Shown here: positions 27,970 to 46,246 of the stretch, piece by piece | Layout: every line of letters starts with the position of its first letter | Numbering within the stretch: the stretch's first letter is position 1 | NCBI RefSeq assembly: GCF_018336935.1 | Contig: NZ_CP068771.1 | Span: forward strand, 2,418,001 to 2,482,000 | Length of the DNA stretch: 64,000 nucleotides | Origin: Serratia plymuthica | GTDB lineage: Bacteria; Pseudomonadota; Gammaproteobacteria; Enterobacterales; Enterobacteriaceae | Reading direction: 5' to 3' | The notes under the pieces: model-generated | What the model saw: the letters and a program-made list of their open reading frames with translations, nothing else | The model's database searches: none | What the model was told of the DNA's origin: nothing | Made by a program: the position numbers and the translations under genes

Positions 27970-28143
27970 TCGCTAAGTAATGGACTATTTGTAATAAGCC
28001 TTTGCTTTACACCGCAACCTGCAAGTTATTATTATCACTTCGTACCCCACCGCTGTATCAATTTAAATTTTAATTATATTTCATCGCGCCATGCCCGCGG
28101 CGGCGCGTTATTTACTGCTGTCTCCCGTATTGAGGACATCGTT

Positions 28144-29382
28144 ATGGTTGTTTCTGTTTCGCCTGCGCCGGATGCGGCCAATTTCCCTCACGCAGAAGAA
28201 CGGACCCACAGGATTGTCGACGACCAACAGGCGCTGGATGCAGCACGGCAAGTCGCCGCGGCCGCCGCGCCTGAAGCCCAACTGCGTGACCGCCAACGGC
28301 GCTATCCGTTACAACAGCTGGCGCTGTTTACCCAATCTGGCCTCGGTGGCATTTCCATCCCGCGTGAATACGGCGGACCGGCACTGTCCTTTACCACGCT
28401 GGCGGAGGTGTTTCGCCTGATTTCCGCCGTTGATCCGGCGCTGGGGCAAATTCCGCAAAACCATTTCGGCCTGATTCAGTTAATCCGTGATGCCGGCAAT
28501 GAAGAACAGAAACGGCGTATTTTCGCGGCGGTGCTGGCCGGCCAACGCATCGGGAACGGTGGCCCAGAGAAAAACAGCAAGCACACGCTGGATATGCAGA
28601 GCCGCTTACGGCAAACCGCAGACGGCCTGCGCTTTACCGGCGACAAGTTTTACTCCACCGGCGCGCTGTTCGCCCATATCGTCGCCGCCAAGGCACTCGA
28701 CGATCGGCAACAGCCGGTACTGGCATTGATCCCCCACCCGGCGACAGGCCTGGCGATCGTCGATGACTGGTCCGGCATGGGGCAGCGCACCACCGCCAGC
28801 GGCACGGTGCGCCTGCGTGAGGTCCTGGTCGATCCGGACAATGTGATCCCGCTGCTGCCGCTGGCAGAAAGACCGACGATTCAGGGCGCCGTTTCCCAGC
28901 TGATTCAGGCCGCCATCGATGCCGGCATTGCGCAGGGCGCGCTGGACGAGGCTACCCAGTTTATTCGCGAGCGTTCTCGCCCCTGGATCGACGCAGGCGT
29001 CGAACGCAACGCTGACGATCCCTACATTCTGGCCGACGTCGGCCGGCTCAGCATGGAACTGAGCGCGGCGAACGCCCTGTTGCGCCGTGCGGCGTGGACG
29101 CTGGATGAGATCGACCGCCGACCGGTGACCGCCGAGAGCGCCGCAGCGGCGTCGATCGCCGTCGCCGAAGCCAAGGTGCTGACCACGGAAGTGGCGCTGT
29201 TGGCCAGCGAAAAACTGTTCGAATGGTCCGGCAGCCGCGCCACGCTGGCGGAGCACGGCCTCGATCGTCACTGGCGTAACGCACGCACCCACACGTTGCA
29301 CGATCCGGTGCGCTGGAAATACCACGCCATTGGCGAGTACTACCTCAACGGCCGCTTTCCGGCGCGCCATTCGTGGATTTAA
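28144..29382 (+). CDS. SfnB-family sulfur-acquisition flavoprotein
   Basis: A 412-aa member of the acyl-CoA-dehydrogenase-fold flavin enzymes. It matches the SfnB/DszC-like group used in organosulfur breakdown rather than fatty-acid oxidation. Blocks seen are GISIPREYGGP near 70-80, GQIPQNHFG, DDWSGMGQRTTASGTV and the C-terminal DRHWRNARTHTLHDPVRWKY. Such enzymes use reduced flavin and oxygen on sulfones, sulfonates or related compounds. It is the first large gene of a seven-gene unit. The next gene is a paralogue, starting 11 bp after this stop. Confidence 0.85.
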   Translation: MVVSVSPAPDAANFPHAEERTHRIVDDQQALDAARQVAAAAAPEAQLRDRQRRYPLQQLALFTQSGLGGISIPREYGGPALSFTTLAEVFRLISAVDPALGQIPQNHFGLIQLIRDAGNEEQKRRIFAAVLAGQRIGNGGPEKNSKHTLDMQSRLRQTADGLRFTGDKFYSTGALFAHIVAAKALDDRQQPVLALIPHPATGLAIVDDWSGMGQRTTASGTVRLREVLVDPDNVIPLLPLAERPTIQGAVSQLIQAAIDAGIAQGALDEATQFIRERSRPWIDAGVERNADDPYILADVGRLSMELSAANALLRRAAWTLDEIDRRPVTAESAAAASIAVAEAKVLTTEVALLASEKLFEWSGSRATLAEHGLDRHWRNARTHTLHDPVRWKYHAIGEYYLNGRFPARHSWI

Positions 29383-29393
29383 AGGAGCAGAAC

Positions 29394-30599
29394 ATGACCA
29401 CCCAGGTAGCCTCTCAACGCGTGGCGCAACGCATTACCAGCCCCGAACAGGCGCTGGAGACCGCATACCGGCTGGCGGAGCAATTCAGCCCGACCGCCGC
29501 CGAGCGTGACAGCCAACGACGATTGCCGGTTGCCGAACTGGCAGACCTGTTCGCCTCTGGCCTCGGCGCGATTACCGTGCCGCACGAATTTGGCGGCCCG
29601 GGGTTGTCGAACCGCGTGCTGGCGCAGGTCATCGCTATTCTCAGCCAGGGCGATGCGTCGATCGGCCAGGTGCCGCAAAACCATTATTACGCGCTGGAAG
29701 TGCTGCGGGTGAACGGTTCGCCGCAGCAGCAACGGCGGCTGTACCAGGAAGCGCTGGACGGAGTGCATTTCGGCAATGCGCTGGCGGAGTTTGCCGGCAA
29801 GGCCGCCCACCACCGCAGCACCTCGCTGGCCAGGCATGAAAGCCAATGGCAACTGTCCGGCCAAAAATTTTACGCTACCGGCGCGTTGTACGCCGGGCGC
29901 ATCCCGACCGCCGCGCGGGGCGAAGACGGTAAAGAACAGTTGGTGTTTTTGCCGCGCAATACGCCTGGCCTGAGCATCACCGACGACTGGTCCGGCTTTG
30001 GTCAGCGCACCACCGGCAGCGGCAGCGTGACGCTGGAACAGTGCCCGGTCGATGAAGAGGATATCGTGCCCTTCCAGACGGCGTTTGAACGGCCGACGCC
30101 GGTGGGCCCGCTGGCGCAAATCATGCACGCCGCCATCGATCAGGGCATTGCCAAAGCCGCGTGGCAGGACATGCTGCAATTTGTTCGCAGCCGTTCGCGC
30201 CCGTGGATTGATGCCGGCGTCGAACATGCCAGCGAGGACCCGTTGACGCTGGACCGCATAGGCAAAATTTCCGCCCGCATTCAGGCCGGCGACGCCCTGC
30301 TGGCGGTGGCCGGTGACGCCATCGATGTCGCTCAGCGCCACAGCGATGCCCAGTCGGTCGCGCAAGCCTCGATTGAGGTCGCCACAGCGCGCGCCTGGAC
30401 CACCGAGGTCGCCCTGGCCGCCGGCAATCTGCTGTTTGAGCTGGCCGGTAGCCGTGCCACGCTGCAGGAATATAACCTCGATCGCCACTGGCGCAACGCC
30501 CGAACCCACACCTTGCATGACCCGGTACGCTGGAAATACCCGGCGATCGGCAATTACGTGCTGAACGGGGTGCTGCCGCCGCGCCGGGGGACACTGTAA
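29394..30599 (+). CDS. SfnB-family sulfur-acquisition flavoprotein, second copy
   Basis: A 401-aa paralogue of the preceding gene with the same blocks (GAITVPHEFGGPGLS, GQVPQNHYYALEVLR, DDWSGFGQRTTGSGSV, DRHWRNARTHTLHDPVRWKY). The start at 29394 has AAAGGAG upstream; an earlier ATG at 29373 overlaps the previous gene and is less likely. Divergence between the copies is substantial, so they probably act on different substrates or form a mixed enzyme. The stop overlaps the next start (TAATG), showing translational coupling with the FMN monooxygenase. Confidence 0.87.
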   Translation: MTTQVASQRVAQRITSPEQALETAYRLAEQFSPTAAERDSQRRLPVAELADLFASGLGAITVPHEFGGPGLSNRVLAQVIAILSQGDASIGQVPQNHYYALEVLRVNGSPQQQRRLYQEALDGVHFGNALAEFAGKAAHHRSTSLARHESQWQLSGQKFYATGALYAGRIPTAARGEDGKEQLVFLPRNTPGLSITDDWSGFGQRTTGSGSVTLEQCPVDEEDIVPFQTAFERPTPVGPLAQIMHAAIDQGIAKAAWQDMLQFVRSRSRPWIDAGVEHASEDPLTLDRIGKISARIQAGDALLAVAGDAIDVAQRHSDAQSVAQASIEVATARAWTTEVALAAGNLLFELAGSRATLQEYNLDRHWRNARTHTLHDPVRWKYPAIGNYVLNGVLPPRRGTL

Positions 30600-31969
30600 T
30601 GAACGCTGTCGCCAAAGAGGTCCTGCTGAACGCCTTCAACATGAACTGCGTCGGCCATATTCATCACGGCATGTGGACCCATCCGCAGGATCGCTCCACC
30701 GAATTCAACCAGCTCAGCTACTGGACCGAGCTGGCGCAGTTGCTGGAGCGCGGGCTGTTCGACGGGTTGTTCATCGCCGATATCCTCGGCGTTTACGATG
30801 TCTATCAGCAAAACATCGCCCTGACCGCCCGCGAGTCGATACAGCTGCCGGTTAACGATCCGCTGCTGCTGGTGTCGGCGATGGCCGGAGTGACCCAACA
30901 TCTGGGCTTCGGCATCACCGCCAACCTGAGTTATGAAGCGCCCTATCCCTTTGCCCGCCGCATGTCGACGCTGGACCATCTGACCCAGGGCCGCATCGGC
31001 TGGAATATCGTCACCGGCTACCTGGACAGCGCCGCGCGCGCGATGGGGTTGAACGAACAGATCGGTCACGATCGCCGTTACGATCAGGCCGATGAGTTTC
31101 TCGACGTTGCCTATCGGTTATGGGAAGGCAGTTGGGAAGATGACGCCGTGCTGGCCGACCGTCAACGACGGATTTACGCCGATGCGCAGAAGATCCACAA
31201 GGTTACCCACCGCGGCGAATTTTATCAGGTGGAGGGCTATCACCTGTCTTCGCCTTCGCCGCAGCGTACCCCGCTGCTGTTCCAGGCCGGCAGCTCGGCA
31301 CGGGGGATTCAGTTCGCCGCCCGCCACGCGGAGTGCACCTTCGTTAACCACGCCACCCCGGCGGTAATGAAAGCGCAGGTGGACAAGCTGCGTACCGCAG
31401 CGGTGGCGGCCGGCCGCCAGCGACAGGATTTGAAAGTGTTTATGGGGGTCGGCGTTATCGTTGCGCCAACCGCCGCCGAGGCGCAGGACAAACACCGTGA
31501 ATATCTGCGTTACGCCAGCCCTGAAGCCGGTCTGGCGCATTTTTCCAGTTCGACCGGCATCGATCTTTCACGCTTTGGCCTGGACGACCCGATCCAGGCC
31601 GGGCCGACGCAGGCCATTGAATCGGTAACCCAAACCTACCGCGGCTGGACCCGCCGCCAACTGCTGGAACAGCACGCCATGGGCGGACGTTATCCGTTGG
31701 TGGTGGGCGATCCGCAACAGGTGGCGGACAGGTTGCTGCAATGGGTGGATCAAGCCGATATCGACGGGTTTAACCTGACGCGCATCGTTAACCCAGGCAG
31801 CTACCGCGATTTTATCGATCTGGTGGTGCCGGAGTTGCAAGCGCGTGGCCGCTACAAAACCGCCTACCGCGCCGGCAGCCTGCGGCAAAAGCTGTTTCGA
31901 CAGCAGGACCGCTTGCCGCACAGCCATCCGGCGGCCAGCTGGCGTCTGGGCGCGCCTTTACCCGTTTGA
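30599..31969 (+). CDS. FMN-dependent monooxygenase, NtaA/SnaA/DszA family
   Basis: A 456-aa bacterial-luciferase-like monooxygenase of the NtaA/SnaA/SoxA(DszA) family. It shows HHGMWTHPQDRST near the start, RMSTLDHLTQGRIGWNIVTG and LFQAGSSARGIQFAARHAE. These enzymes use FMNH2 from a separate reductase to oxidise sulfones, sulfonates or chelators. Gene order (two SfnB types, then this) suggests stepwise C-S bond cleavage. No flavin reductase is seen nearby, so one encoded elsewhere must serve it. The substrate is not defined. Confidence 0.88.
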   Translation: MNAVAKEVLLNAFNMNCVGHIHHGMWTHPQDRSTEFNQLSYWTELAQLLERGLFDGLFIADILGVYDVYQQNIALTARESIQLPVNDPLLLVSAMAGVTQHLGFGITANLSYEAPYPFARRMSTLDHLTQGRIGWNIVTGYLDSAARAMGLNEQIGHDRRYDQADEFLDVAYRLWEGSWEDDAVLADRQRRIYADAQKIHKVTHRGEFYQVEGYHLSSPSPQRTPLLFQAGSSARGIQFAARHAECTFVNHATPAVMKAQVDKLRTAAVAAGRQRQDLKVFMGVGVIVAPTAAEAQDKHREYLRYASPEAGLAHFSSSTGIDLSRFGLDDPIQAGPTQAIESVTQTYRGWTRRQLLEQHAMGGRYPLVVGDPQQVADRLLQWVDQADIDGFNLTRIVNPGSYRDFIDLVVPELQARGRYKTAYRAGSLRQKLFRQQDRLPHSHPAASWRLGAPLPV

Positions 31970-31998
31970 ACCCTCACTTTTTTTGAAGGAACAACCCT

Positions 31999-32811
31999 AT
32001 GACAATACCCTTTCGGACAGTAACACTGCTGTTTTCGGCGCTGCTGGCGATCTCAGGCCCGGCGGCTGCGGCCAATGAGTACAGCGGAGCCCTGAAAGTC
32101 GGCACCACCGCCGCCTTCGCCCCGCCGCTGGAGGTAGCGGCGGAAGAGGCTCGCAAACAGGGACTGAAGGTCGACATCGTCGAATTCAGCGACTGGACCG
32201 CACCGAACGTCAGCCTGGAAAACGGCGATATCGACGTCAACCTGTTCCAGCACTTGCCGTTCCTGCACAACGCCAATAAAGAAGGCAATTTCCACCTGGT
32301 GGCCTATGCCCCGGCGATCATCAATAACGTCGGGCTGTACTCCAAAAAATACCGGAGCATCGCCGATCTGCCGGAGGGTGCCAAAGTGGCGATCGCCAAC
32401 GACGTGATTAACGGTGGCCGCGGCCTGTTGCTGTTGCAAAAGGCCGGGTTGATTAAGCTCAAGGCGGGCTCCGGCCTGCAGGCCACCCAGGCAGACATCG
32501 TCAGTAACCCTAAACATATCAACATTATCGAAGTGGAAGCGGTGCAACTGGCACGCACGCTGGAGGAAGTTGACCTGGCGCAGGGCTATCCGCACTACCT
32601 GCGGCTGTCCGGCACCGTCGATCCCAACAGCGCCCTGCTGTTCGACGGCCTGGAAAACCCGGAGTACGTGATCCAGTTCGTGGTCCGCGATGGCCATCAG
32701 GACGACCCGCGTCTGCGCAAGTTTGTCGACGTTTACCAGCATTCGCCGGTCGTGCGCGCCAAACTCGACAGTTTCTACGGCAAGCTGTATCAGCCGGGCT
32801 GGAGCCAGTAG
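31999..32811 (+). CDS. MetQ/NlpA-family periplasmic binding protein
   Basis: A 270-aa exported binding protein. The signal peptide ends in GPAAAANEY and has no lipobox cysteine, unlike MetQ of E. coli. The mature protein has the family features LKVGTTAAFAPPLEVAAEEA and GDIDVNLFQHLPFL. It is followed by a matching ATPase and permease, making a complete MetQNI-type importer. In this sulfur operon it may take up a methionine-like or other organosulfur compound. Confidence 0.87.
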   Translation: MTIPFRTVTLLFSALLAISGPAAAANEYSGALKVGTTAAFAPPLEVAAEEARKQGLKVDIVEFSDWTAPNVSLENGDIDVNLFQHLPFLHNANKEGNFHLVAYAPAIINNVGLYSKKYRSIADLPEGAKVAIANDVINGGRGLLLLQKAGLIKLKAGSGLQATQADIVSNPKHINIIEVEAVQLARTLEEVDLAQGYPHYLRLSGTVDPNSALLFDGLENPEYVIQFVVRDGHQDDPRLRKFVDVYQHSPVVRAKLDSFYGKLYQPGWSQ

Positions 32812-32814
32812 TTT

Positions 32815-33906
32815 ATGTCCAGCCTGATTTTGTCTAACCCGGATGCCCTCGTCGCCGACGAGGTGGTGCGCCGCCATGATGACACCCACCTGCGCTTTAC
32901 CCGGCTCAGCAAGCGTTACCCCGGCCAACTGACCGAGGCGCTGAAGGAGATCTCCCTGGGCATTCGCCGTGGGGAGATATTCGGCATTATCGGCCGCAGC
33001 GGCGCCGGCAAGTCGTCCCTGATCCGCACCATCAATCGGCTGGAACGCCCCAGCGGCGGCAGCGTGGAGGTCGATGGCGTTGATATCGGCCAATTGAATG
33101 AAGATCAACTGGTGGCCTACCGGCGGCGCACCGGCATGATTTTCCAGCACTTCAACCTGCTGTCGGCCAAAACCGTCCGGCAGAATATCGAGTTGCCGCT
33201 GCGAGTGGCGGGCGTGCCCGTCGCCGAGCGGCGCAGCAGAGTGGACGCATTGCTGGAACTGGTCGGGCTGAGCGACTACCCGGACGCCTATCCGGCGCAG
33301 CTTTCCGGCGGGCAGAAACAGCGGGTCGGCATTGCCAGGGCGCTGGTGCATAACCCCGAATTGCTGTTGTGCGATGAAGCCACCTCCGCGCTCGATCCGG
33401 AAACCACCCGCGCCATTCTGGCGCTGTTACGGCGCATCAACCGTGAGTTCAACATCACCATCGTGCTGATTACCCATGAAATGGAGGTGATCCATGATAT
33501 CTGCCACCGGGTGGCGGTGCTGGAACGGGGTGAGATTATCGAATGCGGCCCGGTGTGGCAGGTGTACGGCAACCCGCAGCAGAAAACGACCCGCATCCTG
33601 CTGACCCCTTCACACGATCGCTTGCCGGAGGAATGGGTTGGGCGGATTGCCGCCACGCCCCCCACGCCGGATGCAGCGCAATTGATCCGGTTACGCTACC
33701 GCGGCCAAGGAGCATCGCTGGAGTTAAACCGCGTGCTGGCGGCTTTTCAGGGCAGCGTGACGCTGGTGGAAAGCGCCATTGAACATATTCAGGGGCGCAC
33801 CATCGGTTATCTGCTGCTGACCGTGACGCCGTCACTGAATGATCGAACCATTCCGCAGACGCTGGCCGACAGCGTGGAGGTCCTGGGTTATGTCACTGTT
33901 GCTTGA
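32815..33906 (+). CDS. MetN-like ABC importer ATPase
   Basis: A 363-aa ATPase of the methionine importer family. Walker A is GRSGAGKSS (60-68), the signature is LSGGQKQR, Walker B is [14 protein letters not shown], and the H-loop is VLITHEME. The C-terminal hundred residues form the NIL regulatory domain typical of MetN ([20 protein letters not shown]). It starts 3 bp after the binding-protein gene and overlaps the permease gene by 17 bases. Confidence 0.9.
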
Positions 33907-34543
33907 ACGGCTGTGGGCCGGATTTCTCGATACGTTGCTGATGGTGGGCGTTTCTTCCCTGTTGGCGCTGGTGCTGGGATTGCCGCTGGCGATCCTGTTG
34001 GTGGTCAGTGAACGCGGCGGATTGTATGAACAGGTTGGCGTTCAGCGGGTGCTCGGCGGGTTGGTGAATCTGTTCCGCTCGATCCCCTTTTTGATCCTGA
34101 TGGTGGCGCTGATCCCCTTCACCCGCATGATTGTCGGCACCTCTTATGGCGTATGGGCCGCCGTGGTGCCGCTGACCATCGCCGCCATGCCGTTTTTCGC
34201 GCGTATCGCCGAAGTCAGTCTGCGAGAGGTGGACCAGGGGCTGGTTGAAGCGGCGCAGGCAATGGGTTGCCGCCGTGGGCATATCATTCGCCATGTGCTG
34301 TTGCCGGAAGCCATGCCCGGTATTGTCAGCGGCTTTACCATCACCCTGGTGACCATGATTAACGCCTCTGCGATGGCAGGAGCAATAGGCGCGGGCGGCC
34401 TGGGTGACCTGGCGTACCGTTATGGGTACCAGCGTTTCGACACCCAGGTAATGCTCACCGTCATCGTGGTATTGGTGGCGCTGGTGACCCTGCTGCAATT
34501 TTTTGGCGATCGGCTTTCCCGCCGGTTAAACCACCGTCATTAA
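33890..34543 (+). CDS. MetI-like ABC importer permease
   Basis: A 217-aa inner-membrane permease with five to six membrane spans. The coupling-loop region ([20 protein letters not shown]) carries the EAA motif and matches MetI. I take the ATG at 33890 ([12 protein letters not shown]), which overlaps the end of the ATPase gene; the longer reading from 33839 lies fully within it. Together with the two preceding genes it completes the importer. Confidence 0.9.
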
Positions 34544-34566
34544 CCTTTACTGACTGGATATGCGTA

Positions 34567-35517
34567 ATGAAAAAACTGAAAGCCTCGCTGATCGCCGCTG
34601 CGCTGCTAGCGGGGACATTCGCCCTGCCGGCCGTGGCGGCGCAGGAAAAACCGCAGCAAATCACCATCGGTTACCAGAAAGCCAATATTTTCGCCCTGCT
34701 GAAATATCGCGGTACGCTGGAGAAAACCCTGACGCCGCAGGGCATCAACGTGCGCTGGATTGAGTTTCCCGCCGGGCCACAAATGCTCGAAGGGCTGAAC
34801 GTCGGCAGCATTGATCTGGCGGCGACCGGCGATGCGCCACCGGCCTTTGCCCAGGCCGCCAAAGCCGAGTTGATCTATCTGGGGCATTCGCCGGCCAGCC
34901 CGAAAACCGAAGCCATCGTGGTGCCGCAGGATTCGCCGATCAAAACCGTTGCCGACCTCAAGGGCAAACGCGTGGCGCTGAACAAAGGCTCCGACGTCAA
35001 CTACCTGTTGGTCAGCGCGCTTGAACAGGCCGGGCTGAGCTACAAAGACGTGACGCCGGTGTATTTGCCGCCGAGTGACGCCCGCGCCGCCTTCCAGCGC
35101 GGCAGCGTCGACGCCTGGGTGATTTGGGACCCTTACTACGCCGAGGTGGAAACCCACGCCAACGCCCGTCTGCTGAAGGATGCCGAAGGTCTGGTGCCGC
35201 ATTACACCTTCTATCTCGCCAGCCGCCACTTTGCCGAAACCTACCCGGACAGCGCAAAATTGGTGATCGGCCAGCTAAGTGAACTGAGCGCCTGGGCCAA
35301 TGCCCATCAGGACGACGCGGCGAAGATCCTGGCGCAAAGCACCGGGTTGGATCAGGCCATTTGGGCCAGAGCCCTCGCCCGCATGCCGTTCGGCAGCCAA
35401 CGCATGACGCCGGCGGTATTTGCCGAACAGCAGCAATTAGCCGACAAGTTCACCGCGATTGGCCTGCTGCCGGTCAAGGTGGACATCGGCGCCGCACGCT
35501 GGTCCGAGGATAAGTAA
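34567..35517 (+). CDS. SsuA-family aliphatic sulfonate-binding protein
   Basis: A 316-aa exported substrate-binding protein. A signal peptide (KASLIAAALLAGTFALPAVA) precedes a SsuA-type fold (ITIGYQKANIFALLKYRG, then GPQMLEGLNVGSIDLAATGD; WVIWDPYYAEVET). The cognate SsuB/SsuC components are not present here, so it must use a pump encoded elsewhere or the MetNI-like one beside it. It is the last gene of the sulfur operon and is followed by a clear terminator. Confidence 0.9.
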   Translation: MKKLKASLIAAALLAGTFALPAVAAQEKPQQITIGYQKANIFALLKYRGTLEKTLTPQGINVRWIEFPAGPQMLEGLNVGSIDLAATGDAPPAFAQAAKAELIYLGHSPASPKTEAIVVPQDSPIKTVADLKGKRVALNKGSDVNYLLVSALEQAGLSYKDVTPVYLPPSDARAAFQRGSVDAWVIWDPYYAEVETHANARLLKDAEGLVPHYTFYLASRHFAETYPDSAKLVIGQLSELSAWANAHQDDAAKILAQSTGLDQAIWARALARMPFGSQRMTPAVFAEQQQLADKFTAIGLLPVKVDIGAARWSEDK

Positions 35518-35682
35518 CTTACTGAATATCTTTGTATTGATTCAGCTAAGCAAAGCGATATTCGGCATTTAACCTGCAGGGATATTTTTATTATTATCGG
35601 GACATGTCTCTGGAAGCACTTTCTTTCAGGGCCTGTCTACCGGAGTTTTTGTCCTTGTTTCGTTCGTCGCGAACTTATTTTG

Positions 35683-35712
35683 GCCGCACTTTTGTGCGGC
35701 TTTTCTTTTTTG
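35683..35712 (+). terminator. terminator of the organosulfur operon
   Basis: GCCGCAC-TTTT-GTGCGGC is followed directly by TTTTCTTTTTT. A strong intrinsic terminator on the plus strand, 165 bp after the SsuA-like stop. Confidence 0.88.
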
Positions 35713-35732
35713 GCACGGGTCCGCTGCGGGTA

Positions 35733-35766
35733 TAAAAAAGCCGGCACAGAGTGCTCTGCGCCGGCT
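35733..35766 (-). terminator. terminator of the encapsulin operon
   Basis: The hairpin has outer arms AGCCGGC and GCCGGCT and an inner CAGAG/CTCTG stem. On the minus strand a run of six T residues follows. It lies 26 bp past the cysteine desulfurase stop. Confidence 0.85.
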
Positions 35767-35791
35767 CGGTTATCCTTCGTGTTACTCGCTA

Positions 35792-37603
35792 TTAGCGCCC
35801 TTTTGCCAGCTTGCGCAAGGTTGCCGCCAACAGATCCACTTCCTCGTAAGTATTGTAAAACGCCAGCGATGGCCGCACCGTCGCCTCGACGCCAAAGCGC
35901 CGCAGGATAGGTTGGGCGCAGTGATGGCCGGAGCGCACCGCAATGCCCTCACGGTTAAGCGCGTTACCCACTTCTTCGGTACGGTAGCCGCTCAACACAA
36001 ACGACAGCACGCTGGCCTTGTTGGCGGCGGTACCAATCAGGCGCAGACCGGGAATGCGAATCAACTGCCCGGTGGCATACTCCAGCAATTCATGCTCGTA
36101 ACGGTTGATGTTATCAAGCCCCAGGCGTTCGACGTAATCCAATGCCGCCCCTAATCCCACCGCGTCGGCGATGTTGCCGGTACCGGCTTCAAACCTGGCC
36201 GGAGCCGGCTGGTACAGCGTTTTCTCAAAGGTGACATCGGCAATCATATTGCCGCCACCCTGCCACGGCGGCAGGGTTTCCAGCAGCTCCGCCTTGCCGT
36301 ACACCGCGCCGATGCCGGTTGGGCCAAACACCTTGTGGCCGGAGAACACGTAAAAGTCCGCGTCCATCGTCTGCACGTTAACTTTCAGATGCGATACCGC
36401 CTGTGCGCCATCCACCAACACCCGCGCGCCGGCCTGATGAGCCAGCGCAATCACCTGCTCGACCGGCGTCACCGTACCCAGCGCATTGGATACCTGGGTG
36501 ATCGAAACCAAACGGGTTCGCGGCGACAAGAGTTTGCGGTATTCATCCAGCAGAATCTGCCCGCTGTCATCGACCGGGATCACCCGAATTTTGGCCCCCA
36601 CGCCGGCGGCGAGCTGCTGCCAGGGCACGATGTTGGCGTGGTGTTCCAACTGGGAAACCACGATTTCATCGCCTTCGCCGATGTGTTGGCGGCCAAAAGT
36701 ATTGGCAATCAGGTTGATGGCTTCCGTTGCCCCCCGGGTAAAGATAATTTCCGCCGGTGTTTTGGCTCCCAGAAAACGGGCGACGCTGTTTCTGGCCCCT
36801 TCATAGGCATCCGTTGCCCTGGCGGCCAGCTCATGCGCCGCGCGGTGGATATTCGAGTTTTCATGGGCGTAAAAATACGCCAGCCGATCGATAACCACCT
36901 GCGGTTTATGGGTGGTGGCGGCGTTATCCAGCCACACCAAAGGTTTGCCGTTAACCCGTTCCGCAAGAATGGGAAAGTCGCGGCGTACGGCATGCACATC
37001 AAAACTGCTGCGCGGCCGTTGCTGCGGGGCGGCGTCTCGCCGTGGCTGACCCTGCTCCAGGAAATAATACTGCCCGCCGGTCGCATCTTGCGCCACGCCG
37101 CCAACCGACGCGGCGACGGCAGGAAACAGCGATCCGATAACCGACTCCAGCCCGCCGTTGACCGCCCCGGCGAAGGGTTGGTCGCTAAGATGCTCCTGCC
37201 CGGTCAGCGTCTGGTTCGCCAGGCCGTCCAGCCCGCTATCCGGCGGCAAGCGTTTCTGCTGCGCCTGATTTTCGCTCAGAAAATAGAACCCGGCCGTCGC
37301 CGCCGGATCCCGTGGCTGAGGCAGCGTCGGCGGTGCCAAAAAGGCCTGCCGCTGTGCGCCCTGCTGCCAACCGGACGACGTTTGCGCCTCCAGACCGTCG
37401 GTGGCCAGCGCCGGCTCCAGCACTGGCGTAGCGGTCGGTGGTAACACCGTCGTGGCGCGTTCGCTGCCTGCGGCCGCCTCACGCCCAGGCAAGGCACTGA
37501 AGATCTGATTAGCCAGGTTGGCCAGCGCGTTAACGTCCGGCAATCCGGCTGGCGGATGCGCCTCGTGAGGCAATGAACTACTTGTAACTGTCTGGATAGT
37601 CAT
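35792..37603 (-). CDS. encapsulin cargo cysteine desulfurase (family 2A)
   Basis: A 603-aa PLP enzyme converting cysteine to alanine plus enzyme-bound sulfane sulfur. Residues about 203-603 are a complete SufS-like class II desulfurase: PLP Lys424 in FSGHKVFGPTG and catalytic Cys562 in RSGHHCAQP. The first 200 residues are a low-complexity, Pro/Ala/Gln-rich extension typical of family 2A encapsulin cargo. It carries LANLANQIFSALPG (27-40) and two related short motifs, GFYFL (105-109) and QYYFL (178-182). Such N-termini target the enzyme into the shell. The gene overlaps the shell gene by 26 bp, so the two are translated together. Confidence 0.93.
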   Translation of the reverse strand: MTIQTVTSSSLPHEAHPPAGLPDVNALANLANQIFSALPGREAAAGSERATTVLPPTATPVLEPALATDGLEAQTSSGWQQGAQRQAFLAPPTLPQPRDPAATAGFYFLSENQAQQKRLPPDSGLDGLANQTLTGQEHLSDQPFAGAVNGGLESVIGSLFPAVAASVGGVAQDATGGQYYFLEQGQPRRDAAPQQRPRSSFDVHAVRRDFPILAERVNGKPLVWLDNAATTHKPQVVIDRLAYFYAHENSNIHRAAHELAARATDAYEGARNSVARFLGAKTPAEIIFTRGATEAINLIANTFGRQHIGEGDEIVVSQLEHHANIVPWQQLAAGVGAKIRVIPVDDSGQILLDEYRKLLSPRTRLVSITQVSNALGTVTPVEQVIALAHQAGARVLVDGAQAVSHLKVNVQTMDADFYVFSGHKVFGPTGIGAVYGKAELLETLPPWQGGGNMIADVTFEKTLYQPAPARFEAGTGNIADAVGLGAALDYVERLGLDNINRYEHELLEYATGQLIRIPGLRLIGTAANKASVLSFVLSGYRTEEVGNALNREGIAVRSGHHCAQPILRRFGVEATVRPSLAFYNTYEEVDLLAATLRKLAKGR

Positions 37604-38510
37604 GATATTTGCTCACATCAACATCGTCTAAAACGGCAACGGCATCTTCAGTCAGAACCGCCAATGAGCAGTAAAGGGAGATCAGGTAGGAGGCTATCGC
37701 ATTGCGGTTAATCCCCATAAAGCGCACCGACAGCCCCGGGCTTTGCTCACCGGCGACGCCCGGCTGGTAAAGGCCAATGACGCCCTGACGTTTTTCCCCG
37801 GTACGCAGCAGGATAATTTTGGTTTTGCCTTCTTCGTCGATGGGCAACTTATCCGAAGGGATCAGCGGCAAACCACGCCAGGTGAGAAACTGCGAACCGA
37901 ACAGGCTGACGGTTGGCGGCGGTACGCCACGGCGGGTGCACTCGCGGCCAAAGGCGGCGATGGCTAGCGGATGAGCGAGGAAGAAACCGGGCTCTTTCCA
38001 TACTTTGGCGATCAGTTCGTCCAGATCGTCCGGCGTCGGCGCACCGGTCAGCGTTGAAATACGCTGGGCTTCATCAACGCTGGCCAATAAGCCGTACTCA
38101 GGGTTATTGATCAGCTCGTTTTCCTGGCGCTCTTTAATGGTTTCAATGGTCAGGCGCAACTGTTCGCGAATTTGATCGTGCGGGCTGCTGTACAAATCGG
38201 AGACGCGGGTATGCACATCCAGAATGGTGGTAACGGCATTGAGAAAATACTCGCGCGGCGCTTCTTCATAATCCACATAGGTCTGGGGCAATAACCCTTC
38301 ATCGCGCTGCGAGCAGGCAACCTGAACATTTAACGGGTTCTTGACCTTGTTCAGGCGAAATATCCCTGCCTCGACCGGTGTCCATTGCAGCAAATGCACC
38401 AGCCAACGCGGCGTGATAATGGATAATTGCGGGACGGTTTTTGTCGCGTTAGCCAATTGCCGTGCTGCATTATCTCCTAATGCAAGCCGGGCGTCATTTT
38501 GTTGAGACAT
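37578..38510 (-). CDS. family 2A encapsulin shell protein (SrpI-like)
   Basis: A 310-aa HK97-fold shell protein of the SrpI-like family 2A encapsulins, which self-assemble into closed nanocompartments. The N-terminal arm leads into SIITPRWLVHLLQWTPVEAG. The acidic middle (EEAPREYFLNAVTTILDVHT) and FLTWRGLPLIPSDKLPI match the family. No cyclic-nucleotide-binding domain is present, which separates 2A from 2B. Neighbours are exactly the 2A set: serine acetyltransferase and rhodanese upstream, cysteine desulfurase downstream. AGGAGA precedes the ATG by 7 bases. Older annotations call this protein a major membrane protein, which is misleading. Confidence 0.93.
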   Translation of the reverse strand: MSQQNDARLALGDNAARQLANATKTVPQLSIITPRWLVHLLQWTPVEAGIFRLNKVKNPLNVQVACSQRDEGLLPQTYVDYEEAPREYFLNAVTTILDVHTRVSDLYSSPHDQIREQLRLTIETIKERQENELINNPEYGLLASVDEAQRISTLTGAPTPDDLDELIAKVWKEPGFFLAHPLAIAAFGRECTRRGVPPPTVSLFGSQFLTWRGLPLIPSDKLPIDEEGKTKIILLRTGEKRQGVIGLYQPGVAGEQSPGLSVRFMGINRNAIASYLISLYCSLAVLTEDAVAVLDDVDVSKYHDYPDSYK

Positions 38511-38653
38511 GGTTGTTTCTCCTGAAAAAATAGGCTGGTGATAAACAATGAATAATTACCGATTTAATAGCGCGTTAAATAGAATATGAATTTTTTGATT
38601 GTTTTTTTGCAGACCTCACTGCGGGCTAATTAAAATGATTGAAATGCGCCAGA

Positions 38654-39607
38654 TTAAATACCTGAGCCAAATTCATGACTGTCGCTCTGGATATTTGCCT
38701 GGCGAATATTGCTGCCCGGTTTGACGCTGCGCGTCAGCCAGACGTTGCCGCCAATGGACGATCCCTTGCCAATGGTAATTCTGCCCAGCAACGTAGCGCC
38801 GGCGTAGATCACCACATCGTCTTCAATAATCGGATGGCGTGGCTGCCCTTTTTGCAGAATGCCGGACTCCTCGGTGACAAAACGTTTGGCGCCCAGCGTG
38901 ACCGCCTGATAGAGACGTACCCGCTTGCCGATAATGGCGGTTTCGCCAATCACCACGCCCGTGCCGTGGTCGATAAAAAAACCGTCATCGATTTGTGCGC
39001 CGGGATGAATATCGATACCGGTTTCACCGTGAGCCTTTTCGGCGATGATGCGCGCCAGCAAAGGAACGCCCGCGAGATAAAAATAGTGCGCCAGCCGGTG
39101 GTGGATAATGGCGTTGACGCCGGGGAAACACAGCAGCACCTCGTCCACGCTGCGCGCCGAAGGATCGCCGTGATAAGCGGCCAGAATGTCGCTGTCCAGC
39201 CGGCGGCGGATGGCCGGCAGCACGGTGGCGAACTGCCGCACCAGCGTCACCGCCTGCGCATTGAGCGAGTCCCCTTGCTCCGCGTCGCCACCCTCTGAAC
39301 GGCTAAACCCCAAAGCGAGGCGCACCTGAATCAGCAGTGCATTCAGCACCGCATCCAGCGTATGGCCAACGAAGTAGTCTTCGCTTTCATGGCGCAGATC
39401 GTCCGGCCCCAATCGCATCGGGAATAAAATCGCCCGCAGCGATTCGGTTATTTCGTTGACCGCAGTTTTCGACGGCAGCTCCTTTTGCCCGGAAAGCGAT
39501 GCCTGGCCGCTGCGCTCGCGCCAGGAGAGCCGCGCTGAGCGCAGCTCATTGACGATATCGGCAAGTTGCCAGTTGGTATTTTCTTGCGGCTGTGAAAAGC
39601 GAGTCAT
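38654..39607 (-). CDS. serine O-acetyltransferase (EpsC-like), encapsulin operon
   Basis: A 317-aa enzyme making O-acetylserine, the carbon skeleton for cysteine. The N-terminal helical domain runs to about 180. The left-handed beta-helix follows (EKAHGETGIDIHPGAQIDDG, then FFIDHGTGVVIGETAIIGKR; GATLLGRITIGKGSSIGGNV), with the catalytic His residues in place. It differs from housekeeping CysE and matches the EpsC type linked to family 2A encapsulins. GAGGG lies 4 bases before the ATG. It sits between the rhodanese and shell genes, 143 bp before the shell. Confidence 0.92.
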   Translation of the reverse strand: MTRFSQPQENTNWQLADIVNELRSARLSWRERSGQASLSGQKELPSKTAVNEITESLRAILFPMRLGPDDLRHESEDYFVGHTLDAVLNALLIQVRLALGFSRSEGGDAEQGDSLNAQAVTLVRQFATVLPAIRRRLDSDILAAYHGDPSARSVDEVLLCFPGVNAIIHHRLAHYFYLAGVPLLARIIAEKAHGETGIDIHPGAQIDDGFFIDHGTGVVIGETAIIGKRVRLYQAVTLGAKRFVTEESGILQKGQPRHPIIEDDVVIYAGATLLGRITIGKGSSIGGNVWLTRSVKPGSNIRQANIQSDSHEFGSGI

Positions 39608-39660
39608 AATTCCCTCTGTTTATGTGATAACACCCAATGACCCACTCGGTTCGAGCGCCG

Positions 39661-40101
39661 TCAGGCGGTCTTCAGCCAGGGCAAGTGTCGTGCGCCCTCA
39701 ACCCCGCCTTGCACCCCGTAAGCCTGCGTATAACCGGCTTTAAGGGCGGCCAGCACCGCATCGGCGGAGCGTTTGCCGGTTTGGCACAACAAGATGACCT
39801 GCTGTTGTTTGTCGACAGCTTTGCTTAACTCAAGGAAAAAGCGTGGGTTGCGGATTTTGTTCGAGCCGGTTAACCAGGGAACCTGCACGGATTGCTCAAC
39901 GTAGCCAAAGGTTTTGCGCTCTTCCGGGGTACGGATATCCACCAACACCGCCGCCCCGCTGTTGACTAATTGCCAACTGACTTCCGGCGTCAGATCGCGT
40001 TCAAAAACGGCGGCATTTTGGGCGGCGTAGTTATCCCTGCCCGGGCTACCCGCATTCACGTTGGAATGGGTGTTAAACGTTTGTGCAGATGCGTAGGACA
40101 T
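39661..40101 (-). CDS. rhodanese-like sulfurtransferase, encapsulin operon
   Basis: A 146-aa single-domain rhodanese. The active-site loop LLCQTGKRS gives Cys106, which can carry a persulfide. DIRTPEERKTFGYVEQSVQV is the usual second conserved block. The start at 40101 is set by GGAGG 5 bases upstream; the ATG at 40116 has none. It is the first gene of the encapsulin operon and would take up or pass on sulfane sulfur from the desulfurase. The roughly 35-residue N-terminal extension lacks a signal peptide. Confidence 0.9.
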   Translation of the reverse strand: MSYASAQTFNTHSNVNAGSPGRDNYAAQNAAVFERDLTPEVSWQLVNSGAAVLVDIRTPEERKTFGYVEQSVQVPWLTGSNKIRNPRFFLELSKAVDKQQQVILLCQTGKRSADAVLAALKAGYTQAYGVQGGVEGARHLPWLKTA

Positions 40102-40453
40102 ATTTACCTCCGGCATGTTTTCTATTTTTCAGTAGGGTCGTTTTCTTTCATTAACGTCAATTTATTATCCTTTCCGACCAGCAATAAATAACTTTTCATT
40201 AGGGCTTATAGTAAAAGCATCTAGCCCGACTTAGCTAAAATCAGGCTAATGAAAACCAATTATTGGCTTATGAATTTCAATTTTTGCGCGGCTATGTTAC
40301 GGCGCGCTGTTACCCGTTTTCTCCCGTCGATCACATTACGGGTAACACAGTTTGTTAACACTCTTCAGCGTGATATCTGTCGCAAAACCGCCGTCTGAAA
40401 ACCGCTTTGATAACAGCAACGAAGCAATGATGTTTTCTGAACAGGTGAAAATG
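40102..40453. promoter_or_regulatory. divergent promoter, encapsulin operon / hydroxyacid dehydrogenase
   Basis: About 350 bp of AT-rich DNA upstream of both the minus-strand encapsulin operon and the plus-strand hydroxyacid dehydrogenase. Apart from a weak TAGCC/GGCTA dyad around 40221-40247 I see no recognisable operator. Open codons from 40352 precede the dehydrogenase but are not expected to be translated. Confidence 0.4.
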
Positions 40454-41401
40454 ATGACCGATACCCCAAATAACGTGCTGTTAATCGCCCCGCTAATGGA
40501 CAGCCTGCTTGCCCGCCTTGAGGCTGACTTTGTCGTGCACCGGCTCTACGAACAGGCCGATCCGGCCGCTTTTCTGGCCGCCAAGGGCGGAACTTTCACC
40601 GCCCTGGTCACCCGCGGCGATATTGGCGTTGCTACGCCGGTACTGGAACAACTGCCGAATCTGGGGCTGATTGCCGTTTTCGGCGTGGGTACCGACGCCA
40701 TTGACCTGAGTTATACCCGGCAGCGCGGCATCGCGGTCACCATCACCTCCGGCGCACTGACCGAAGACGTGGCGGATATGGCGCTGGGGTTGTTGCTGGC
40801 GACCGCGCGCCAGCTGTGCCGCTACGACCGTTTTGTGCGTGAGGGCCGCTGGCAGCAGGAAGCGCCGGGCCTGTCGGTGCAGGTCAGCGGCAAGCGCCTC
40901 GGCATTTTTGGCATGGGCAACATCGGCCGCGCCATTGCCCAGCGCGCTGCCGGTTTCAACATGCATATTCAATACGCCAGCCACCAACAGGATGGCGCAT
41001 TACCCTATGCCTACTTCCCTGATCCCCTTTCCCTGGCGCGGGAAAGCGACTTCTTTGTTATCGCCATTTCCGGCGGCAAAGACAGCATCGGCCTGGTGGA
41101 CAAGGCAGTCTTCGACGCTCTGCCGCCGCACGCGCTGGTGATTAACATTGCCCGCGGCAGCATCGTTAATGAACAGGATCTGATCGATGCCCTGCAAAGC
41201 GGCGCCATCGCAGGCGCCGGGCTGGATGTCTACGCCGATGAGCCAAGGGTGCCCGCCGAACTGATTGGCATGAACAACGTGGTGCTGCAACCCCACGTCG
41301 CCAGTGGCACGCACGAAACCCGGCAAAAGATGAGCGATATCGTGTTCGCCAACGTAAAAGCCTTCTTTAACCGTACGCCGCTGCCCAACGCGATTGAGTA
41401 A
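40454..41401 (+). CDS. D-2-hydroxyacid dehydrogenase, NAD(P)-dependent
   Basis: A 315-aa enzyme of the GhrB/hydroxypyruvate-reductase group, reducing 2-oxo acids such as glyoxylate or hydroxypyruvate. The dinucleotide motif is LGIFGMGNIGRAIAQRA. The catalytic Arg (INIARGSIVNE), Glu (DVYADEP) and His (QPHVASGTHET) are all present. I choose the ATG at 40454, with AGGTGA upstream; ATGs at 40427, 40430 and 40451 are possible. It leads a likely operon with an MFS transporter and an RpiR regulator. Confidence 0.87.
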   Translation: MTDTPNNVLLIAPLMDSLLARLEADFVVHRLYEQADPAAFLAAKGGTFTALVTRGDIGVATPVLEQLPNLGLIAVFGVGTDAIDLSYTRQRGIAVTITSGALTEDVADMALGLLLATARQLCRYDRFVREGRWQQEAPGLSVQVSGKRLGIFGMGNIGRAIAQRAAGFNMHIQYASHQQDGALPYAYFPDPLSLARESDFFVIAISGGKDSIGLVDKAVFDALPPHALVINIARGSIVNEQDLIDALQSGAIAGAGLDVYADEPRVPAELIGMNNVVLQPHVASGTHETRQKMSDIVFANVKAFFNRTPLPNAIE

Positions 41402-41456
41402 TTAACCGCGAACGACAGAACCTTATTGTTACCCTCGCCCGCAAAGAGAGATCGCC

Positions 41457-42764
41457 ATGGATAATAAAATCCCCAACACCCGCTGGTTGCGGGTTATTGC
41501 CCCGATCCTGATCGCCTGCATTATTTCTTTTATGGACCGGGTTAATATCAGTTTTGCGCTGCCCGGCGGCATGGAAAGTGATTTGGGCATCACCAGCCAG
41601 ATGGCCGGCCTGGCCAGCGGCATTTTCTTTATCGGTTATCTGTTTTTGCAGGTGCCCGGTGGGCGCATCGCGGTTAACGGCAGCGGCAAACGTTTTATCG
41701 CCTGGTCTTTGTGCGCGTGGGCGGTAGTTTCGGTGGCCACCGGATTTGTCACCAATCACTATCAGCTGCTGGTACTGCGCTTTGTTCTGGGCATTTCCGA
41801 AGGGGGCATGTTGCCGGTGGTGCTGACCATGATCAGCAACTGGTTCCCGGAGAAAGAGCTGGGGCGCGCCAACGCTTTCGTCATGATGTTCGCCCCTCTT
41901 GGCGGCATGCTGACCGCACCGATCTCCGGTGCCATCATCAATCAGCTCGACTGGCGCTGGCTGTTTATACTCGAAGGGGTACTGTCGCTGCTGGTGCTGG
42001 CCGTCTGGTGGCTGTTGATCAGCGATCGTCCGCAGGAGGCGCGTTGGTTACCGGCCCGCGAGCGTGAATATCTGATAACCGAATTGGCGCGTGAGCGTCA
42101 GGCGCGCAGCAAAATGCAGCCGGTCAGTAATGCTCCATTGAGAGATGTGTTCCGCAATAAAGGGCTGATGAAACTGGTGCTGCTGAACTTCTTTTATCAA
42201 ACCGGCGATTACGGCTACACCCTGTGGCTACCCACCATCCTGAAAAATCTCACCGGCGGCAATATGGCCTCGGTCGGGTTTCTGGCCATTTTGCCCTTCG
42301 TCGCCACGCTGCTGGGGATTTACCTGATTTCGGTACTCACCGACAAAACCGGCAAGCGCCGCCTGTGGGTGATGGTTTCACTGTTCTGCTTCGCCACCGC
42401 GCTGTTGGCCTCGGTGGTACTGCGCCATAACGTCGTGGCGGCCTACATCGCCCTGGTGGTCTGCGGGTTCTTCCTCAAGGCCGCCACCAGCCCGTTCTGG
42501 TCGATGCCTGGCCGCATCGCTTCGGCGGAAGTAGCCGGCGGCGCGCGCGGCGTGATCAACGGCCTGGGCAATCTGGGCGGTTTCTGCGGGCCTTATCTGG
42601 TCGGCGTGATGATTTATCTGTACGGCCAGAACGTCGCCGTCTGCGCGCTGGCCGTCTCGCTGATTATCGCCGGCATTATCGCCTGGCGGCTGCCGAAGGA
42701 GTGCGATCTGACCGGCTCAGAACCGGCGCATGACGCCCTGCTGGATAAGGCTAAACGCGCCTGA
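41457..42764 (+). CDS. MFS transporter, anion:cation symporter family
   Basis: A 435-aa inner-membrane symporter with 12 spans. FMDRVNISFALPGGMESDLG in TM1 and FVLGISEGGMLPVVLTMISN, followed by WFPEKELGRANAF, are diagnostic of the ACS family (ExuT, GarP, phthalate-permease types), which import sugar acids and organic acids. It lies 55 bp behind the hydroxyacid dehydrogenase, suggesting uptake of that enzyme's substrate or a precursor. Confidence 0.87.
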   Translation: MDNKIPNTRWLRVIAPILIACIISFMDRVNISFALPGGMESDLGITSQMAGLASGIFFIGYLFLQVPGGRIAVNGSGKRFIAWSLCAWAVVSVATGFVTNHYQLLVLRFVLGISEGGMLPVVLTMISNWFPEKELGRANAFVMMFAPLGGMLTAPISGAIINQLDWRWLFILEGVLSLLVLAVWWLLISDRPQEARWLPAREREYLITELARERQARSKMQPVSNAPLRDVFRNKGLMKLVLLNFFYQTGDYGYTLWLPTILKNLTGGNMASVGFLAILPFVATLLGIYLISVLTDKTGKRRLWVMVSLFCFATALLASVVLRHNVVAAYIALVVCGFFLKAATSPFWSMPGRIASAEVAGGARGVINGLGNLGGFCGPYLVGVMIYLYGQNVAVCALAVSLIIAGIIAWRLPKECDLTGSEPAHDALLDKAKRA

Positions 42765-42852
42765 AAAGCAACGGAAACCACGAGCGGGCTACGGCAGAAT
42801 TTGCTATGTTAGCCCGCTGATTACGCTCTGTTGCCACTAGCCGGATAAGTCT

Positions 42853-43587
42853 ATGTTTACCCATAAAGCAATCGCCGAACTCAACGCGCTGGAAATGATG
42901 GTTTATAACTACGTCATCAAAAACAAGAAACCGGTGATGTACATGACGATCCGCGAACTGGCCGAGGCTAGCGGGGTGTCAACCACCACCGTGTTGCGCT
43001 TTTGCAAGAAAATGGGTTGCGAGGGGTATTCCGAATTCCGTATCCGTTTCAAGCTGTATCTGGAGCAAACGGAAGTCATGCCGCTGGATTTTGGCACCAG
43101 TGAAATCATCAGTTTTTTTAAAAGCATCAACAACGACGAGTTTAATCAGCAAATCGATCAGGCGGTACAGCATATCGCCGCGGCGGAACGTATTATTTTC
43201 GTCGGCGTAAGCACCTCGGGCGCGTTGGGCAAATACGGGGCGCGTTTCTTTTCCAACGTCGGGAAATTCAGCACCCATATTGACGATCCTTATTACCCGA
43301 TCAACAGCGATATGTATAAAAGCGCAGTGGCGATTATGCTTTCGGTCTCCGGCGAAACCGAAGAGATCCTGCGTCTCGCCAGCCAGTTCAGCCTGCATCA
43401 CTGCAAGATTGTCAGCATCACCAACAACGAAACCTCGTCGCTGGCCAAAATTGCGGACTTCAACCTCTCCTATCACGTCCCCCAACAGCTCATCGCCGGC
43501 CAACATAATATCACCACCCAGATTCCGGTCATTTACATTATTGAAACCATCGGCAAGCGGCTGGGGAATATTAACGCCGCAAAATAA
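42853..43587 (+). CDS. RpiR/MurR-family regulator with SIS domain
   Basis: A 244-aa regulator. The N-terminal helix-turn-helix (MTIRELAEASGVSTTTVLRF) is followed by a SIS sugar-phosphate-binding domain (RIIFVGVSTSGALGKYGARF; VSGETEEILRLASQF). Such proteins sense sugar phosphates. It may control the preceding dehydrogenase/MFS pair, or the 6-phospho-beta-glucosidase 260 bp downstream on the same strand. Confidence 0.87.
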   Translation: MFTHKAIAELNALEMMVYNYVIKNKKPVMYMTIRELAEASGVSTTTVLRFCKKMGCEGYSEFRIRFKLYLEQTEVMPLDFGTSEIISFFKSINNDEFNQQIDQAVQHIAAAERIIFVGVSTSGALGKYGARFFSNVGKFSTHIDDPYYPINSDMYKSAVAIMLSVSGETEEILRLASQFSLHHCKIVSITNNETSSLAKIADFNLSYHVPQQLIAGQHNITTQIPVIYIIETIGKRLGNINAAK

Positions 43588-43687
43588 AACAGTCTGTTTT
43601 TTTAATGTGACAAGTTACCGAAGCGGCGATTTGTTATATCGTGACATTTAATTCCAGCTTGTTACTCTATTCTCAGACGCTAACAAA

Positions 43688-43815
43688 ATATACCCTTCAT
43701 ACTTGAAGCTGCATCTGTGTTGGCCGCGCCCGCGCACCCCAGTCACTTAGCTTACTAAGCTCCTGGGGATTTACGGTCTTGCCGCCTTGATGCAACTCCA
43801 ATTATTTTGCGTATA
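43688..43815. repeat. ERIC (IRU) element
   Basis: A roughly 128-bp enterobacterial repetitive intergenic consensus element. The central segment (ACCCCAGTCACTTAGCTTAC and AAGCTCCTGGGGATTTACGG) matches the complement of the classical ERIC core. The ends are complementary (TATACCCTT... and ...TTTTGCGTATA), giving a long imperfect hairpin. It sits intact between the RpiR gene and bglA, 33 bp before the bglA start, and would be part of the bglA leader if transcription starts upstream. Confidence 0.93.
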
Positions 43816-43830
43816 GCCTTTCATTAATAA

Positions 43831-45285
<1,455 letters not shown>

Positions 45286-45312
45286 CAATCACGGGTTTTT
45301 CTTATGAAAACG

Positions 45313-45345
45313 AAAATGAGCCACATCTCTGTGGCTCATTTTTAT
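45313..45345 (+). terminator. bglA terminator
   Basis: ATGAGCCACA and TGTGGCTCAT are perfect arms with loop TCTC, extended by flanking A/T pairs and followed by TTTTTATTT. A strong intrinsic terminator 27 bp after the bglA stop. Confidence 0.9.
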
Positions 45346-45356
45346 TTGAACGATGC

Positions 45357-45377
45357 TACATAACCTCAGGTTATGTA
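45357..45377. promoter_or_regulatory. PcaQ-like operator upstream of pcaHG
   Basis: TACATAACC and its exact complement GGTTATGTA are separated by TCA: a perfect 9-bp dyad about 142 bp before pcaH. The ATAACC...GGTTA halves match the PcaQ site reported in rhizobia, with one base less spacing. A pcaQ gene lies directly downstream of pcaG. Confidence 0.6.
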
Positions 45378-45461
45378 AAACGCCGCTAGATTTCACTTTA
45401 TCGTAACACTTCGGCTTGCGTAGACTCAGTGTGGGGACCGGGTTTCTCCCCTTCGCGCTGA

Positions 45462-46246
<785 letters not shown>

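Follow-up and report, generated by a model that had tools for sequence, protein, structure and literature searches.

The window analysed here is a stretch of 64,000 nucleotides from the chromosome of Serratia plymuthica (a single contig of 5.46 Mb), and the four genes that it carries in one direction on the minus strand are, judged from their sequence, an intact family 2A encapsulin operon of an already described type. It is reasonably likely that the shell encoded by this operon stores sulfur derived from cysteine, and that the accompanying serine O-acetyltransferase (SAT) docks through its C-terminal tail on CysK, the cysteine synthase encoded elsewhere on the chromosome. An earlier note on this DNA had recognized the four genes as encoding a rhodanese, an EpsC-type SAT, a SrpI-like shell and a cysteine desulfurase. 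Their reading frames were confirmed to be open at the limits given there, in the transcription order rhodanese, SAT, shell and desulfurase, and the four names proved correct when Pfam and NCBIfam models were scored against their curated cut-offs (Table 1). Beyond what that note described, the present analysis brings in a GxGI tail on the SAT, the lack of a synthase gene, a set of sulfur-scavenging neighbours, an empty site in related genomes and a 26-base overlap between the shell and cargo genes.

Rhodanese and SAT are reported as the most enriched accessory genes in 2A desulfurase operons (Giessen survey, PMC8346489), and the gene order seen in the window is repeated in 59 of the 77 non-Serratia loci when shell relatives are compared (80 loci, the best 80 of 452 found). 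The statement that this is the full known gene set was slightly too strong: rhodanese, SAT, shell and desulfurase are all present, but some 2A operons, among them that of Synechococcus elongatus, have a cysteine synthase gene as well, and none was found within positions 28001-46000 of the window.

The assignment of shell and cargo to family 2A is supported by their model scores. The shell also passes PF19307 (355 bits, cut-off 22.8), the sole Pfam domain in its 310 residues, and the 2B model (431 bits, cut-off 400), the latter 115 bits below its 2A score; the cyclic-nucleotide-binding domain that marks family 2B shells (PMC8346489) is absent. Solved 2A shells align over almost its whole length (8t6r, 3e-173; 6x8m, 3e-150), which upholds the expected HK97 fold at the level of sequence, the AlphaFold model obtained from a 17-row alignment (mean predicted local distance difference test score, pLDDT, 36) being uninformative. 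The nearest named relatives among the best 80 of 452 are shells of S. plymuthica, S. inhibens and a metagenome-assembled S. liquefaciens genome, each 99% identical. The remark that such shells are misannotated as membrane proteins is borne out by the name “Major membrane protein I” used in the PDB matches.

The feature that sets the operon apart is the end of its SAT. All six Serratia 2A SATs terminate in EFGSGI (...HEFGSGI in the window), a tail of the GxGI type, like that of CysE, and predicted to serve for docking on cysteine synthase. Five of the six codons of this hexapeptide vary over the six Serratia, yet every change is synonymous and no residue is altered, although one of the six SATs is just 86.5% identical to that of the window. 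The CysE of the same genome (PRK11132, 556 bits, cut-off 397) ends in FEYGDGI, and the chromosome encodes, away from the operon, both CysK (TIGR01139, 478 bits, cut-off 351) and CysM (540 bits, cut-off 413). The C-terminal isoleucine of CysE is reported to insert into the CysK active site, where it is critical and serves as the anchor of the complex between the two enzymes (PMC5562914). We infer from these sequences that the SAT of the Serratia operon may work with the chromosomal CysK, rebuilding sulfur released from the shell into cysteine.

A survey of SAT tails points in the same direction. From 110 loci left after manual removal of duplicates and non-shell entries, one more (L120, identical to L081) was taken out, which left 109 distinct 2A loci; a SAT tail could be read in 94 of these and in the other 15 there was none. 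A GxGI tail is found in six of the six loci that have a cysteine synthase gene at most 8 kb from the shell, versus 10 of the 88 that do not (Fisher p 1e-5, a value that ignores kinship). The six synthase-linked loci belong to S. elongatus, Aliarcobacter, two enterobacterial genera, one genome of the same class (G360) and one of the same phylum (G748), while the ten GxGI loci without a nearby synthase are the six Serratia together with L073, L135, L136 and L137. Such a distribution suggests that a GxGI tail is characteristic of SATs accompanied by a cysteine synthase, Serratia having kept the tail and not the gene. That all GxGI tails go back to one origin was rejected (p 0.0003); on the sequences compared, the tails have been gained or lost more than once. 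Among the best 120 of 7,994 SAT relatives, five end in GxGI, namely three Serratia-like proteins at least 95% identical, one 86% identical, and P0016, a non-Serratia SAT on a short metagenome contig that is 67% identical and ends in GSGI.

In the mechanism proposed, and by analogy with the 2A systems studied, the shell would form a small icosahedron, and the N-terminal extension of the desulfurase would target this enzyme to its interior. The 26-base overlap would couple cargo translation to shell translation. The desulfurase would then deposit cysteine sulfur inside the shell as sulfane or elemental sulfur, and the rhodanese would collect it on the outside and move it on. The operon SAT would make O-acetylserine while binding the chromosomal CysK in trans through its tail, so that released sulfur could be fixed again as cysteine, and the docking would tie provision of the acceptor used in cysteine synthesis to cellular sulfur status. 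Such a connection of the SAT tail to CysK would link storage to re-use. The role in sulfur storage or channelling is taken from studied relatives (PMC8049743), and the neighbouring genes suggest that the operon may serve when sulfate is scarce and sulfonates or other organosulfur compounds are used. More tentatively, there may exist a version of the 2A system wired to the cysteine synthase complex, with the synthase either local (Synechococcus, Aliarcobacter, some enterobacteria) or acting in trans (the CysK of Serratia), so that shell and complex together would make up a two-way buffer for cysteine sulfur.

Several observations weigh against this reading. In a kinship-aware test of the association between tail and synthase, the four independent pairs gave 2.4 concordant on average and none opposite, which is not significant, four pairs being too few to reach significance. 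Synthase genes could have been missed, because in 30 of the 89 “no synthase” rows (a duplicate among the 89) less than 8 kb was read on one flank, and in three of them less than 4 kb. By model score, the synthases of L108 and L110, two of the six loci in support, are closer to CysM than to CysK, those of S. elongatus and Aliarcobacter passing the CysK model, and CysM is reported not to bind CysE (PMC12895370). Moreover, among the 88 SATs with no synthase nearby, 78 have no GxGI tail, those of the five Acinetobacter loci included, so that docking is not required for 2A function in general. The sulfur-scavenging genes are not tied to the operon (two other Serratia genomes, L096 and L097, have the genes without the operon, and L095 has the operon without the genes), and the inverted repeat upstream of the rhodanese gene occurs nowhere else in the genome as searched, giving no sign of a shared regulon.

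Four other explanations were weighed. A possible though unlikely one, compatible with docking, is that the shell is a channel and not a store, the encased desulfurase giving its persulfide sulfur exclusively to the operon rhodanese, which would put it to a dedicated use. The title of a later (2024) paper on the A. baumannii 2A system reportedly claims sulfur storage, which speaks against a channel, as does the identity of the rhodanese across the non-Serratia loci (37-53%, versus 81-92% for the shell), odd for a partner expected to dock on the shell surface. On the other hand, channelling was put forward by Giessen and Andreas (PMC8346489), and the rhodanese leads the Serratia operon and has a homologue in 74 of the 77 non-Serratia loci.

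Slightly less probable is a plain 2A sulfur store in which the SAT just feeds the O-acetylserine pool and the GSGI tail is a leftover with no docking role. That operons persist in spite of the many SATs lacking both tail and nearby synthase agrees with it, and descent alone could explain the tail, given that the Serratia SATs form a clade with the GxGI SATs of L108 and L110, two other enterobacterial loci (support 99/97). What argues for docking instead is the exclusively synonymous change of EFGSGI in six species, one with so divergent a SAT, and the presence of the tail at every synthase-linked locus. Cysteine detoxification, in which the shell would remove surplus cysteine instead of saving scarce sulfur, is improbable: the desulfurase does break down cysteine, and the sequence does not fix the direction of use, but the operon SAT would raise a cysteine precursor, sulfur-scavenging genes lie close by and expression of the homologue in S. 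elongatus rises under sulfate starvation (PMC8049743). Finally, a phage capsid remnant or a membrane protein with chance neighbours, suggested by the viral HK97 fold of encapsulins (PMC8346489) and by the database names, has a negligible chance and is already refuted by the 2A model score, the overlapping cargo gene and the order conserved among relatives.

A docking tail would bear on how sulfur leaves 2A shells and returns to metabolism, and on why SAT is so frequently co-encoded. In the literature searched, no title or abstract opening names the tail of a 2A SAT or a Serratia 2A system, and the 2024 sulfur-storage paper may treat such points. Serratia is easily cultured and has sister species with an empty site, which makes it a convenient enterobacterium in which to probe the role of the operon.

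Table 1. Features of the family 2A operon and its surroundings (positions in the window unless a locus is named).
Feature	Position	Strand	Remarks
Rhodanese, 146 residues	39661..40101	-	PF00581, 4e-13; GGAGG precedes the ATG at 40101
CQTGKRS loop with likely sulfur-carrying cysteine	39766..39786	-	Residue 106 of 146
SAT, EpsC type, 317 residues	38654..39607	-	NF041874, 157 bits, cut-off 150
EFGSGI, C-terminal SAT tail, predicted cysteine synthase docking tail	38657..38674	-	GxGI type, like CysE
Family 2A encapsulin shell, 310 residues	37578..38510	-	NF041162, 546 bits, cut-off 380
Overlap of 26 bases, shell stop/desulfurase start	37578..37603	-	Offset common to most relatives
Cargo cysteine desulfurase, SufS-like, 603 residues	35792..37603	-	NF041166, 894 bits, cut-off 800; N-terminal extension of 199 residues
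LANLANQIFS, likely cargo-loading motif	37496..37525	-	Resembles LARLANEFFS (PMC8049743)
FYFLSEN motif in extension	37268..37288	-	Resembles AASPYYFLDG (PMC8049743)
YYFLEQG motif in extension	37049..37069	-	Resembles AASPYYFLDG (PMC8049743)
SGHHCAQP with likely persulfide cysteine	35909..35932	-	Aligned with solved SufS-type enzymes
Terminator-like hairpin and T run, directly 3' of operon	35738..35767	-	13-pair stem, consensus scan
Inverted repeat TTTTCATTAG...CTAATGAAAA, upstream of rhodanese gene, possibly regulatory	40193..40255	.	Block common to six Serratia
Segment absent at empty site of two other Serratia genomes	35715..40316	.	Limits approximate; L096, L097 alignment
sfnB-like, dmoA-like, metQ-, metN-, metI-like and ssuA-like sulfur-scavenging genes	29373..35517	+	Convergent with operon, separate unit
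Second 2A operon type	L108 3558-9900; L109 76-5305; L110 3473-10079		No SAT on the L109 stretch

The cargo enzyme has the two-part structure expected of a 2A desulfurase. Its catalytic part, from residue 199 on, matches solved SufS-type enzymes (624 bits to 8kg1) and contains SGHKVFGP as well as SGHHCAQP, the cysteine of the latter being presumably the persulfide carrier, as in the desulfurase family. The extension preceding it had been described as a disordered N-terminus of 200 residues; the length agrees (199), and 62% of its residues are disorder-promoting as opposed to 49% in the catalytic part, but the FoldIndex value of +0.10 is not negative. The loading-domain motifs LARLANEFFS and AASPYYFLDG (Nichols et al., PMC8049743) have recognizable counterparts there, and neither is universal, since the patterns match 35 (first motif) and 80 (second motif) of 102 desulfurases. 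In Aquitalea pelogenes (L020, 10908-12700) the desulfurase match is split across frames, from either a broken gene or a sequencing error.

An in-frame desulfurase ATG at -26 or -29 from the shell stop is present in 84 of the 109 loci with a desulfurase (one duplicate pair included). In many relatives an in-frame ATG also exists further upstream and may be the true desulfurase start; in Serratia the desulfurase frame opens just 35 bases before the shell stop. The His codon of the shell at this position is CAT wherever that ATG exists, and because CAT is then obligatory, its contrast with the use of CAT elsewhere (189/441) is merely suggestive of selection; CAT also stands at that spot in six of 19 loci without the overlap. 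A better contrast is given by the five Cellvibrio-like loci (L024, L025, L029, L030 and L036), in which the shell His-Asp is written with CAC, no ATG is formed and the desulfurase starts downstream.

For the rhodanese, which passes only the general Pfam domain (PF00581, 50 bits, cut-off 22.2), the mechanical list of open reading frames gives a start at 40116 (39661-40116). The start at 40101 is likelier because GGAGG sits just before its ATG. The cysteine of the CQTGKRS loop is, as in the rhodanese family, the likely sulfur carrier.

Shells of this family are patchily distributed, being present in six of 30 Serratia genomes, in 4 of 198 genomes sampled from the bacterial family (this one counted), in 7 of 369 from the class (six over the cut-off) and in 17 of 398 from the phylum; a distant blastn search of 5,426 genomes in an E. 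coli collection gave no similar shell DNA. In five of the six Serratia the operon is flanked by ssuA on one side and by a gene for a D-2-hydroxyacid dehydrogenase on the other. The two genomes with the empty site have the same neighbours, and their DNA aligns with the window up to 35674 (L096) or 35714 (L097), resuming from 40324 or 40317, respectively, which indicates that the whole segment is either there or missing as one unit. No direct repeats over 9 bases were found between 35501-35800 and 40102-40420.

The sulfur-scavenging genes adjoin the operon in five of the six Serratia. SfnB, the DmoA-family monooxygenase, SsuA and MetI exceed their NCBIfam cut-offs, MetQ and MetN being best matches under theirs. 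Genes of this cluster (at least 40% identity) occur in the fetched stretches near 7 of the 77 non-Serratia loci, in L064 merely as a MetN-like ATPase. A second sfnB-like gene, 46% identical, stands beside the first in two Serratia loci (L003, 19705; L002, 16171).

Besides the hairpin that follows the operon, another terminator-like hairpin closes the convergent ssuA side, and the nine such sites of the region are no commoner than in shuffled sequence (mean 7.8). The inverted repeat is exact in three Serratia and has a single arm base changed in the other three (G007, G008 and G019). Searched as TCATTAG..CTAATGA, it occurs once in this genome, at the operon, and likewise once in G005 and G016. 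The pattern is found in eight of 30 Serratia genomes, the reversed control pattern in two of 30; the matches in G006, G007, G008, G021 and G027 have different cores and lie in different places, G007, G008 and G019 carrying the operon with the pattern unmatched there. Rfam at gathering thresholds gave no RNA family in the 28-46 kb region.

The histories of the individual genes hint at a mosaic origin, with the SAT coming from one 2A lineage and the shell from another. The Serratia shell groups with those of Pseudomonas, Azotobacter and Azomonas (Shimodaira-Hasegawa-like approximate likelihood ratio test, SH-aLRT, 95), and a shell clade with L108-L110, from three other enterobacterial genera, was rejected (approximately unbiased test, AU, p 0.0003). 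Such an origin is merely a lead, because a SAT clade with Pseudomonadaceae (p 0.12) and a desulfurase clade with L108-L110 (p 0.10) were not rejected. The SAT tree had 92 rows, the CysE-type SATs L136, L137, L139 and L140 being left out for want of an anchor, and the clade tests used 45 of these; the desulfurase tree had 48 rows. Both selections were chosen by hand.

Among known 2A systems, that of Acinetobacter baumannii, the organism of the 8t6r shell (PMC11946847), has a shell 81% identical to the Serratia shell. Five other Acinetobacter loci have rhodanese, shell and desulfurase on one strand, as in Serratia, and the desulfurase of one of them (L076) shares the FYFL and YYFL motifs; in these five the SAT gene is read from the other strand and its product has no GxGI tail, whereas the Serratia SAT lies within the operon and has one. 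The shells nearest to that of Serratia outside the genus are those of Pseudomonas, Azotobacter and Azomonas (10 loci, 89-92% identity, among the best 80 of 452), with the same gene order in 8 of 10 and, in all 10, a desulfurase ATG at -26 from the shell stop. They differ in that their readable SATs have no GxGI tail (the SAT of L005 is 66% identical) and in that the stretches read hold no gene at least 40% identical to one of the Serratia sulfur cluster. Azotobacter vinelandii (L010, L011) has two copies of the 2A shell-desulfurase pair, next to one of which neither a SAT nor a rhodanese homologue was found.

A second enterobacterial 2A type (L108-L110) shares with Serratia a family 2A shell, only 58% identical, and a GxGI SAT in the two loci where the SAT was seen. 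Unlike the Serratia operon, it adds a cysteine synthase, a JAMM protease, a ThiS/SAMP-like carrier and a MoeZ-like E1-rhodanese, and its gene content suggests a protein-thiocarboxylate route to cysteine that is coupled to an encapsulin. Its desulfurases have short N-terminal extensions, the LAxLAN and YYFL patterns being unmatched in L108, L110 and the Aliarcobacter plasmid locus L140, and those of L108-L110 have in common SARDYGLPDxRDL, a possible alternative loading motif. The Aliarcobacter plasmid has a similar gene set, interrupted by transposase genes.

The operon of S. elongatus PCC 7942 (cysK-epsC-srpI-cyd-rhodanese, the first two of which we take to be those named srpG and srpH) resembles that of Serratia in its SAT, ending in ESGGGI and thus of the GxGI type, in its shell (74% identical), in the presence of a rhodanese and in the LAQLAQ and FYFI motifs of its cargo. 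It differs in being plasmid-borne, in having the rhodanese last and no overlap of shell and cargo genes, and in holding its own cysK.

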